Positions 1,294 through 39,001 of a stretch of 44,688 nucleotides of DNA are shown here, in pieces; position 1 is the first letter of the stretch, and the number at the start of each line of letters is the position of its first letter. Position numbers and translations under genes: made by a program. Location: assembly GCA_002695005.1 (NCBI GenBank), contig NZNT01000023.1:1-44688 (forward strand). Reading direction: 5' to 3'. The stretch comes from Maritimibacter sp. GTDB taxonomy: Bacteria; Pseudomonadota; Alphaproteobacteria; Rhodobacterales; Rhodobacteraceae. The notes under the pieces are model-generated. The model ran no database searches. It saw only the letters and a program-made list of their open reading frames with translations, and was not told where the DNA came from.

Positions 1294-1322
1294 GTTCTAC
1301 GGTTATGGGCCGTACCCCGCAA
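1294..1322 (-). promoter_or_regulatory. rRNA operon promoter
   Basis: On the minus strand a -35 box TTGCGG (1317-1322) is separated by exactly 17 bp from a -10 box TAGAAC (1294-1299). The tract immediately upstream (1324-1400) is very A/T-rich for this genome, with runs of seven T at 1327 and further T runs, as expected of an UP element. Its position about 400 nt before 16S and its orientation make it the probable main rrn promoter. A second promoter further upstream cannot be excluded. Confidence 0.75.
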
Positions 1323-1471
1323 GTGCTTTTTTTCAGAAACATGAGATTTTTTGCCGGAAAGATGTAAGGCACTGTTTTTATTATATCTTTTTGTGTGTTT
1401 TTCCTCCTGATACCCCTTGGAGGTCCGGAAATCTTGGGCGCTAACAGCGCCAAATCACCCTCAACCCCCCC

Positions 1472-1480
1472 TTATCCACA
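1472..1480 (+). promoter_or_regulatory. Perfect DnaA box
   Basis: The 9-mer TTATCCACA matches the DnaA box consensus at every position. It sits one base before the first of 14 GANTC sites and about 70 bp from the A/T-rich tract at 1324-1400. I found no second perfect box close by. A single box can occur by chance, but its placement at the edge of the GANTC cluster argues for a functional link. Confidence 0.6.
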
Positions 1481-1688
1481 GACTCACCGGGACTCAGAGA
1501 CCCGTTTCACCCCCGATTCAGCCGTTTCGAGCCGGGAATCTCCCCGTGAATCGCTTGTGAGAGTCGGTGACTCGGTGGAATCGGGGGGTGAATCGGCGGA
1601 TTTTTGTGGCGCAGGCCCCGATTCAGGGGTGAATCGGGAGGCGATTCATATGCGCCGGGGGCGATTCACCCGGAAATCCGGGTGAATC
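1481..1688. repeat. Dense GANTC (CcrM methylation site) cluster with iterated GTGAATCGG motif
   Basis: Fourteen GANTC sites start at 1481, 1491, 1515, 1536, 1548, 1561, 1569, 1578, 1590, 1620, 1631, 1643, 1663 and 1684. Under one is expected by chance in 208 bp. Many are part of a longer iterated word, GTGAATCGG or its complement CCGATTCA, in both orientations. Spacings cluster near 8-13 and 20-24 bp, close to one or two helical turns. GANTC is the target of the cell-cycle methyltransferase CcrM of alphaproteobacteria. The stretch lies between the 3' end of msrQ and the rrn promoter and has no credible gene. Confidence 0.85.
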
Positions 1689-1689
1689 G
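1662..1689. repeat. 13-bp perfect inverted repeat, 3' of msrQ
   Basis: The arms CGATTCACCCGGA (1662-1674) and TCCGGGTGAATCG (1677-1689) are perfect complements separated by two bases, and each contains a GANTC site. The element starts seven bases after the msrQ stop codon, so on the minus-strand transcript it could act as a terminator hairpin. However, no run of U follows it. It may instead be a protein-binding palindrome belonging to the GANTC cluster. Confidence 0.7.
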
Positions 1690-1695
1690 GGGGTT

Positions 1696-2313
1696 TCAGG
1701 CGTTCGCTGTCTGGCGGCTGCGCTTCGGAAAGCGAATCCGCACTGCGAGAAGCAGGACGATTCCGACAAGATAGAACACCGGCTCGAGCTGGATGCCCTT
1801 GCGCAGGAGCAGGAAGTGAATCCCGCCCAGGATGATCGCCGGATAGAAGAGCTTGTGGATCTGCTTCCACGTCCCGCGCAGTTTGCGCATTGACCAGTTA
1901 TTCGACGTGACCGCCAGCGGGATGAGAAGCGCGAAGGCCCCCATGCCGATGGTGATGTAGGGCCGCTTCACGATATCGGCCCAGATCTGGCTCCAGATCT
2001 GCACGTCGAGAAACAGCCACACCGCGAGGTGACAGACGATATAGAAGAACCCGACGAGGCCGAGCGCCCGGCGGAACTTCACGAGGTTGATCCGGGTGAA
2101 CCGGAACAGCGGCGTAATCGCCAGCGTCGCGATCAGAACCTGAAGACCGAGGAGCCCGATCTGATGCTCCATCGCCTTCACCGGGTCCACGCCGAGGTTG
2201 CCGGTGACACCCTGATAGAAAAGCCACGCGGGCGGCACGACCCCGATCAGGTAGATCGGCCAGGCCGGGATCTTGCGCAGGGCGCCGTTTGTCGTGCGTG
2301 CGAACTCGGACAT
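1696..2313 (-). CDS. msrQ: MsrQ, heme-binding membrane subunit of the MsrPQ methionine sulfoxide reductase
   Basis: This is a 205-residue polytopic membrane protein of the YedZ/MsrQ ferric-reductase-like family. It passes electrons from the quinone pool through heme b to periplasmic MsrP, which repairs oxidised methionine in envelope proteins. About six hydrophobic segments are visible (for example residues 17-35, 52-68, 85-103 and 117-135). Histidines suited to heme ligation occur in the HLAVWLF segment and in the IHKLFYP...GIHF region. The start codon overlaps the msrP stop by one base (TGATG), so the two are translationally coupled. Length and context are normal for the family. Confidence 0.95.
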   Translation of the reverse strand: MSEFARTTNGALRKIPAWPIYLIGVVPPAWLFYQGVTGNLGVDPVKAMEHQIGLLGLQVLIATLAITPLFRFTRINLVKFRRALGLVGFFYIVCHLAVWLFLDVQIWSQIWADIVKRPYITIGMGAFALLIPLAVTSNNWSMRKLRGTWKQIHKLFYPAIILGGIHFLLLRKGIQLEPVFYLVGIVLLLAVRIRFPKRSRQTANA

Positions 2314-3221
2314 CAGAACTTCTCGGACAGGTCCATGCCGGCATAAAGGCTGGCGACCTGATCTTCGTATCCGTTGAACATGAGCGTGTCCTTGCGGGCC
2401 GCAAAGATGCCGCCGCCGATCACGCGTTCCGTGGCCTGCGACCAGCGCGGGTGATCCACGTTCGGGTTCACGTTACTATAGAAGCCGTATTCCCGCGCGT
2501 TCGCCTTGTTCCAGGTTGTCGGCGGTTCATCCTCGACCAGCGAGATCCGAACGATCGACTTGATCGACTTGAAGCCATACTTCCACGGCACCACCAGCCG
2601 GATCGGTGCGCCGTTCTGTTTCGGCATCGGCTCGCCATAGATCCCGGTGGCCATGAGGGTGAGCGGATGCATCGCCTCATCCAGCCGCAGACCCTCGACA
2701 TAAGGCCATTCGACGACCGGGAACTTCACGCCCGGCATTTCCTCGGGGCGATAGGCCGTCTCGAACGCCACATACTTGGCACCCGACTGAACACCCACTT
2801 TTTCCAGAAGCTGGTTCAGCTCGAACCCGTTCCACGGGATCACCATCGACCAGGCTTCCACACAGCGGAAGCGATAGATGCGCTCCTCGGTCGTCATGCC
2901 CTCGGTCAGATCGGCATAGAAATAGGTGCCGGGGCGGTCGACCAGCCCGTCCACTTCGATGGACCACGGGTCGGTGGTCAGCATGTGGGCGAACTTGGCC
3001 GGATCTTCCTTGCCGGTCCCGAACTCATAGTAGTTGTTGTAGTTGGTGATCTCTTCGAACGTATTCGGCTCGAGCTCGTTTTGTGCGAGCGCCGGGGCCG
3101 CGATGCCGCCGGCCATGAGGCCCGCCGCGCTCGCCATGATCTGCCGGCGGTTCATGTAAAGTGCTTTCGGCGTGACGTCGTCACGGGTCAAATCGGGTTT
3201 GTATCCCATCGGGTCCTCCAT
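2313..3221 (-). CDS. msrP: MsrP, periplasmic molybdopterin methionine sulfoxide reductase catalytic subunit
   Basis: This 302-residue protein belongs to the MsrP/YedY family of the sulfite-oxidase fold. It reduces protein-bound methionine sulfoxide in the periplasm using electrons from MsrQ. A twin-arginine export signal is visible: the RR pair is at residues 25-26, followed by a hydrophobic stretch and an ALA-Q cleavage site near 47. Cys120, in the motif YRFRCVEAW, is the expected molybdenum ligand. A second possible start, Met5, has a stronger GGAGGA site a few bases upstream, so the first four residues are uncertain. It overlaps msrQ downstream and follows the glutamate-synthase-like gene by 55 bp. 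Confidence 0.95.
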
Positions 3222-38686: not shown

Positions 38687-39001
38687 GTCCCCTCGCGCGG
38701 TCGGCCCGGACAGGAGGCCAAAAGCACGGGGTTCGCTCAACGCGCGCGGGGCGATTTATCATGAAGAATCCGGGTGACGCCCAATATCTGTGCGCGCAAA
38801 CAGCCGCTGCACAAACGCGACCCCGAAAAAAAAGACCCGGCGCGTGGCCGGGTCAGTCCAACAGGGAGGATGCCGTGCCATTGCCCCGACACGGCGAGGG
38901 GATCACTCGTATTGTCGCCTTATAAGAAACAATACCATGTTGACTTCCAGTTTACTTCCGAAAGCAGGCGGCAATAAGGCAGGTTTCCACCCCTGTTGCG
39001 G
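38687..39001. other. Intergenic region between response regulator and ABC transporter operon
   Basis: These 315 bp contain a possible promoter for the permease operon (minus strand, TTGGGC 38779-38784, 17 bp, TGATAA 38756-38761) and the terminator at 38826-38854. They also hold a roughly 150-bp 3' region of the response regulator gene that is A/T-richer than average. No ATPase gene or RNA gene is recognisable. Confidence 0.55.
38826..38854 (-). terminator. Rho-independent terminator for the response regulator gene
   Basis: On the minus strand an 8-bp stem, GACCCGGC (38854-38847) and GCCGGGTC (38841-38834), with a 5-base loop is followed by eight T (38833-38826). It lies about 150 bp after the stop codon of the regulator. 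Confidence 0.88.

Follow-up and report, generated by a model that had tools for sequence, protein, structure and literature searches.

A row of 14 GANTC sites joined to a single DnaA box lies upstream of an rRNA operon of Maritimibacter sp., and the same arrangement recurs upstream of rRNA operons across the Rhodobacteraceae. We read this row as probably a CcrM-methylated, DnaA-linked region that controls the rRNA promoter from upstream and give this reading a probability of about 0.6. The sequence basis consists of the place of the row, selection for GANTC, helical phasing, the DnaA box, the limits of the row in the taxa examined, a partial link to the presence of CcrM, and the CcrM and GcrA genes of the genome itself. 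It has long been asked how bacteria adjust rRNA synthesis to replication and gene dosage, and here an initiator site and cell-cycle methylase sites appear in fixed helical register with predicted rRNA promoters in many Rhodobacteraceae genera.

We analyzed a 44,688-nucleotide stretch (here called the window), in which all parts of the locus run leftwards, in the order msrP-like gene, msrQ-like gene, GANTC row, DnaA box, A/T-rich tract, predicted promoter, and 16S rRNA gene (Table 1). We take the gene with the Ferric_reduct domain to encode MsrQ and the gene with the Oxidored_molyb domain to encode MsrP. The DnaA box is a perfect TTATCCACA at 1472-1480 and is the sole match to TTATNCACA in the window; the reverse complement of TTATNCACA is absent from the whole window. 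It lies 149 bp from the predicted -35 element. The GANTC sites start at 1481, 1491, 1515, 1536, 1548, 1561, 1569, 1578, 1590, 1620, 1631, 1643, 1663, and 1684, with spacings of 10, 24, 21, 12, 13, 8, 9, 12, 30, 11, 12, 20, and 21 bp. The initial annotation had described this box, 14 GANTC sites in 208 bp, spacings near one or two helical turns, and an A/T-rich tract at 1324-1400; the sequence bears out the box, the site count, and the tract, and most of the spacings are as claimed. Three more GANTC sites (1734, 1759, and 1818) lie inside the msrQ-like gene, and there are none in the window between 586 and 1481, so none falls between the predicted -10 and -35 elements. A match to the SorX sRNA (RF02784; 65.2 bits) lies elsewhere in the window, at 38828-38901 on the minus strand.

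Table 1. Features of the rRNA upstream locus in the window and the CcrM and GcrA genes of the same genome
Feature	Position	Strand	Basis
16S rRNA gene, 5' part, cut by contig end	1..890	-	Rfam RF00177
Predicted rRNA -10, TAGAAC, 17-bp spacer	1294..1299	-	Prediction
Predicted rRNA -35, TTGCGG	1317..1322	-	Prediction
A/T-rich tract, immediately upstream of the predicted -35	1324..1400	.	Sequence; same place A/T-rich in relatives
DnaA box	1472..1480	-	TGTGGATAA read along rRNA transcription; abuts first GANTC (1481)
Row of 14 GANTC (CcrM-type) sites	1481..1688	.	Sequence; zone and phase conserved in relatives
msrQ-like gene	1696..2313	-	Pfam Ferric_reduct
msrP-like gene	2313..3221	-	Pfam Oxidored_molyb
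CcrM gene, own genome	L276:8032-9126	-	RAMA and N6_N4_Mtase domains; PDB 6pbd, E 1.6e-159
GcrA gene, own genome	L317:293-877		PDB 7ye1 and 5yiu matches

The window is GANTC-poor overall, with 80 sites versus 237 expected from dinucleotide shuffles, and the 63 sites outside 1400-1900 correspond to a background of 0.30 per 208 bp. The densest 200 bp of the row holds 13 sites, and the best 200 bp elsewhere in the window holds 3. We sampled the genome in 20 pieces of 20 kb each (400 kb, or 9.4% of a 4.27-Mb draft of 30 contigs) and counted 593 GANTC sites; the densest 200-bp window had 6, versus 13 in the row. Equally dense clusters elsewhere would have counted against the initial annotation, and there were none in this 9.4% sample, although a sample of this size does not prove that the row is the densest in its genome. 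Another sampled place had 5 GANTC sites in and beside coding DNA (L273). Perfect copies of TTATCCACA occurred twice in the 400 kb, both strands counted; the word is therefore not rare in itself, and it is the conserved place that matters.

We determined the distribution of GANTC upstream of rRNA operons with a 16S query over 199 genomes of the family, which matched in 67. From 84 upstream stretches, we used 72 (at least 900 bp; L173 was dropped as a copy of L056). GANTC was enriched about 12-fold in a single zone 550 to 800 bp before the 16S gene, with 19.8 sites per kb between -800 and -550 versus 1.6 per kb further upstream; per 50 bp, the count was about 0.1 or less outside the zone and peaked at about 1.4 to 1.5 inside it. 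The zone held 357 GANTC sites versus a mean of 85.3 in 100 shuffles (standard deviation, 7.8; largest, 105). Among the 12 words with one mismatch to GANTC, GANTT alone exceeded its scaled background (66 versus 51), and among letter permutations GANTC reached 357 versus 28.7, followed by AGNCT (73 versus 31) and TCNGA (89 versus 59). The middle base of the zone sites was free (T, 146; G, 88; A, 71; C, 52). These counts indicate that GANTC sites are under selection as such. The iterated GTGAATCGG/CCGATTCA word of the initial annotation holds within the window but not in the relatives, where GANTC alone is prominent, the base before it being mildly biased toward C or T and the base after it toward G. 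Since the relatives share only GANTC with these mild flanks, we rejected GTGAATCGG as a binding word. We also rejected GTGAATC as a weak DnaA box, as the middle base is G in 25% and C in 14% of sites and there is no shared GTG before the site.

At least 5 zone sites were present in 34 of the 72 upstreams and at least 3 in 53. Taking one upstream per genus gave 64 genera, 59 of them RAMA positive or RAMA untested; with the RAMA-negative genera left out, these 59 had at least 5 zone sites in 32 cases and at least 3 in 48, where 0.24 sites were expected from their own flanks. Copies can differ within a genome: one genome (G173) has 0 and 6 zone sites at its copies and another (G076) has 1, 3, 1, and 3.

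We also approached the locus from its msrP side. The best 80 loci among the matches to an msrP protein query included 58 taken as family members by title (L034-L091), and 56 of these 58, among the matches listed, had an msrQ match. The stretch after msrQ held at least 5 GANTC sites per 200 bp in 20 and at least 4 in 24 of 53 loci among the matches listed, versus 0 and 3 of 53 that reached 5 and 4 sites in the part before the msrQ end; compared locus by locus with the rest, the stretch after msrQ won in 30, tied in 9, and lost in 14 of the 53 listed. Six other genomes of the same genus (L017-L022) had maxima of 2, 7, 4, 6, 2, and 10 GANTC sites per 200 bp, and a seventh (L023) had only a partial msrP match. 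The cluster is conserved at this locus in relatives, a finding that favors the initial annotation. The gene order itself recurs: in 53 of the 56 family loci among the matches listed, the msrPQ-like pair immediately precedes an rRNA operon or contig end, with 16S or the contig end within 2.5 kb past msrQ, and the median gap from msrQ to 16S or contig end over the 56 loci is 456 bp, many contigs ending early.

The DnaA box is found in the same place. In the last 1,500 bp of the 72 upstreams, TGTGGATAA with at most one mismatch occurred in the rRNA sense 26 times in the two bins from -650 to -550 and 11 times in the other 28 bins; on the other strand, the counts were 4 and 1. The box was perfect in 11 of the 72 upstreams and had at most one mismatch in 23 (zone -690 to -520), and a larger, redundant set of 108 upstreams had 31 perfect boxes in 31 of them. 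A GANTC site abuts the box in 7 of the 23 upstreams, the window included, and many relatives have a weaker second box 12 bp upstream of the first. The initial annotation had joined the box and the row into one element, and the sequence data support that the two belong together. In one genus, the roughly 50 bp that follow the DnaA box (CCCCAAATCTGGTATGTTCTGTTTC...GCCTAAGAAAATTGCGA) form a strongly conserved block (L194, L195, L201, L205, L206, L209, and L214).

The row is helically phased. Spacings between adjacent sites peak at 10 to 12 and 21 to 23 bp, pair distances recur near 32, 43, and 53 bp, and the site period is about 10.7 to 11 bp. When each genus was represented by a single upstream, the power was 29.6 at 11 bp, compared to 19.2 at the 99% level and 28.2 at most among the largest powers of 1,000 within-array re-placement nulls over periods of 7 to 20 bp. 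Measured from the DnaA box (17 boxes and 113 upstream sites), the sites lie at about -5, -17, -27, -38, -49, -60, and -71, a phase with a Rayleigh p of about 1e-14 at 10.75 bp if the sites are treated as independent, which they are not fully. We measured the phase to the promoter in 77 upstreams (one per genus plus 13 named loci that may duplicate some of these genera), in 58 of which a rule found a predicted -35 element; these provided 50 arrays with 3 or more sites each and 363 sites in total. The best period was 10.7 bp with a power of 55.9, across a distance of 160 to 370 bp in relatives, where the median distance from the nearest GANTC to the predicted -35 is 157 bp. When the arrays were slid as blocks, none of 2,000 nulls reached 55.9 (largest, 23.1), and in 22 arrays with no box the power of 17.6 to the -35 was reached by 0.0005 of the nulls. 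The gap from the box to the -35 falls mostly in classes one turn apart, at about 148, 159, and 171 bp: among 29 boxes that were perfect or had one mismatch, it was 146 to 150 bp in 13, 158 to 160 bp in 10, 170 to 172 bp in 3, and 84, 94, and 95 bp in the other three. Shared ancestry could explain repeated gaps but hardly the one-turn steps. These results support a row that keeps helical register with the predicted rRNA promoter at a distance of about 150 bp.

We compared the occurrence of the row with that of CcrM, using the RAMA domain match as its marker. From 100 genomes of other families with a 16S match, we took loci from 29, of which 28 were full length (1,495 to 1,500 bp). The row was absent from these 28 other-family alphaproteobacterial upstreams, none of which had more than 4 GANTC sites per 200 bp, and 22 of the 29 genomes had a RAMA match (21 over the cutoff). 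Since these RAMA-bearing outgroups have no row, the row is a trait of the Rhodobacteraceae among the taxa examined and not of CcrM carriers at large. Within the family, the RAMA match was missing in 11 of 395 genomes (G020, G032, G061, G100, G107, G185, G192, G205, G605, G675, and G677), and the 16S query had no match in three of these (G061, G605, and G675). Scoring an upstream as enriched when its sites numbered 3 or more and their rate was at least threefold that of the flanks, we found enrichment in 34 of 45 RAMA-positive versus 2 of 8 RAMA-negative upstreams (Fisher p = 0.0096, with phylogeny ignored and with two of the eight, G032 and G677, from one genus); the first five RAMA-negative upstreams alone gave a p of 0.13. 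In 11 of the 45 RAMA-positive genera, the copy examined had fewer than 3 zone sites, and one genome with a weak RAMA match (G688), counted in neither group, had 1 zone site (L320). The flanks of RAMA-negative upstreams held 1.76 GANTC sites per 280 bp versus 0.24, in line with the GANTC avoidance that the available portion of PMC3973325 reports for CcrM carriers. These comparisons point to a partial link between the row and the presence of CcrM.

In the control region that we propose, the row, one DnaA box, and the -35 element would share one helical face. CcrM most likely methylates the row, and a reader of this methylation would assemble with DnaA on the shared face and contact the promoter complex, perhaps via looping or through a continuous protein-DNA array. 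Passage of the fork would leave the row hemimethylated until CcrM acts, and we propose that rRNA output is in this way tied to replication and to the DnaA state. Methylation might raise or lower rRNA transcription, and the methylation-sensitive switch on the promoter that the initial annotation considered is a hypothesis at this stage. The family-wide layout is suggestive, though no proof, of a link between ribosome production and the chromosome's replication and methylation state. As a more tentative possibility, on which we would not rely at present, the helically phased CcrM-site row and DnaA could form a single nucleoprotein antenna that serves as an epigenetic clock of ribosome synthesis throughout the family; if so, the methylation state, reset at each fork passage, would set rRNA output through an architecture not previously described. 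For this order, the accessible text of PMC8116508 suggests that replication-mediated methylation changes perhaps play no major role.

The best candidate for the reader is GcrA, which would bring to the row its binding to sigma70 RNA polymerase. A GcrA match was present in all 67 genomes searched, seven RAMA-less genomes included, so the presence of GcrA tracks neither CcrM nor the row. In the rRNA sense, the middle base of 424 sites was G or T in 277 and another base in 147, against a background of 79 to 52 that is itself 60% G or T of 131; the G/T share was 75% in the bin at -640, 82% in the bin at -600, and 50% in the last bin, which had 10 sites. YGAKTCG occurred in 65 of the 424 sites and its reverse in 35. 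This bias resembles YGAKTCK, reported in the available part of PMC7987155 as the GcrA-activated motif of Caulobacter, and we treat it as a lead only. Counter-points to the proposed control region are this 60% background, the 11 RAMA-positive genera with fewer than 3 zone sites, the difference between copies within genomes, the universal presence of GcrA in the genomes searched, and the distance of the row from the -35. GANTC sites of GcrA-controlled Caulobacter promoters are close to the promoter, as far as the accessible part of PMC4287350 describes them, whereas the window has no GANTC near or within the -10 and -35 elements and in relatives the nearest site is a median of 157 bp from the -35.

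Several other explanations could account for the row. The initial annotation had considered a replication origin, for which a DnaA box and an A/T-rich tract would be expected hallmarks, but an oriC has several DnaA boxes beside its unwinding region and one place per chromosome that is not bound to rRNA operons. The window has one perfect box, its A/T-rich tract adjoins the rRNA promoter and belongs to the promoter region, and the row follows rRNA operons, with rows at two of them in three genomes (G140, L115 and L144; G149, L128 and L147; G229, L203 and L246). We took hemE, which we assume to be an origin marker although this need not hold here, in 17 genomes, and its distance to the operon was about 2 kb at the short end (G229) and about 1 Mb at the long end (G232). 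An origin is consequently very improbable. A strong DnaA box and many CcrM sites would also suit a site that titrates DnaA, as proposed in the same annotation, or a sink for CcrM. A sink needs neither a fixed distance nor a helical phase to a promoter, and a titration locus of the datA type has several DnaA boxes close together, whereas the window has one perfect box and the 31 perfect boxes of the larger set come one to an upstream. Pure titration is unlikely because most elements have one strong box, and we consider the titration or sink explanation as a whole quite improbable. We assign practically no weight to chance or a mutational repeat: the sites of the window do share a GTGAATCGG-like word, but GANTC alone is strongly raised among comparable pentamers, and at least 3 zone sites in 48 of 59 genera stand against the 0.24 expected from flanks. 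Hairpins or a terminator in the RNA after msrQ are almost as hard to credit. The row of the window folds better than its shuffles (z of -5.97 and -2.66), as do those of two relatives (L050, z of -3.53; L057, z of -3.04), and stems of at least 9 bp are present in 9 of 77 rows versus 2 of 77 for either flanking zone; however, the middle bases of 286 neighboring pairs are complementary no more than by chance (z of -0.4), and the row keeps near the 16S gene and its operon even where msrQ lies further off (L054, L057, and L061). A long inverted repeat surrounds two GANTC sites of the row (window 1662-1689) and could be a 3' hairpin of the msrPQ transcript.

Two further explanations have a somewhat better claim, and both make use of the helical phasing. 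In E. coli, SeqA binds spaced clusters of hemimethylated GATC, and the row likewise clusters methylation sites at helical spacing, with another methylase site and, unlike the SeqA-bound GATC clusters, with a link to a promoter. A SeqA-like protein might therefore bind the freshly hemimethylated row after the fork has passed and silence the rRNA promoter for a time, offsetting the doubling of the operon. The phase to the promoter would fit such sequestration, which by itself leaves the DnaA box unexplained, and we know of no reader of the SeqA kind for such a row; we regard this explanation as unlikely, if worth keeping in mind. Slightly less weight goes to a structural or nucleoid role, in which the row would dock a protein that bends DNA or gathers operons, with methylation tuning this or being incidental. 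Its position upstream of highly expressed operons is consistent with such a role, but one-mismatch words are not enriched, and selection of GANTC with a free middle base argues for a methylase site rather than a structural word.

A CcrM-methylated, DnaA-linked control region would have partial counterparts in known systems. Fis-activated rRNA promoters of E. coli use phased upstream sites that act from one helical face; the sites of the row are instead GANTC and a DnaA box, and they lie further upstream. A 1993 study reportedly dealt with the upstream regulatory regions of the rRNA operons of Rhodobacter sphaeroides, the same kind of region in the same family, and to our knowledge it describes no GANTC row. 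Our full-text literature search, in a collection with few subscription papers, found no paper whose title or opening abstract lines describe such a row, so that prior notice is possible. Caulobacter uses GANTC together with GcrA and sigma70 polymerase at promoters, according to the available portions of PMC8116508, PMC4287350, and PMC7987155. As far as these portions go, its CcrM/GcrA promoters (ctrA P1 and podJ P2, among others) resemble the row in that GANTC serves as a cis-acting mark reset by replication, and they have one or few GANTC sites, no more than about 50 bp from the transcription start, compared to up to 14 in the row. Unlike those promoters, the row is in helical register at a median of 157 bp or more upstream of the -35, belongs to rRNA operons, and has a DnaA box. 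In Alphaproteobacteria, GANTC is rare overall and enriched between genes, a general statistic that names no rRNA array in the accessible part of PMC3973325.

The densest place in the sample of the Maritimibacter genome lies between rpsT and dnaA (L280:18600-18763; contig C29, about 338600; gene names assigned by eye from translations), where 6 GANTC sites fall in 200 bp. In the dnaA upstreams of relatives (L287-L316), three GANTC sites with spacings of about 20 and 58 to 60 bp recur, and this trio lies about 300 to 660 bp before dnaA in many of the 27 usable loci.
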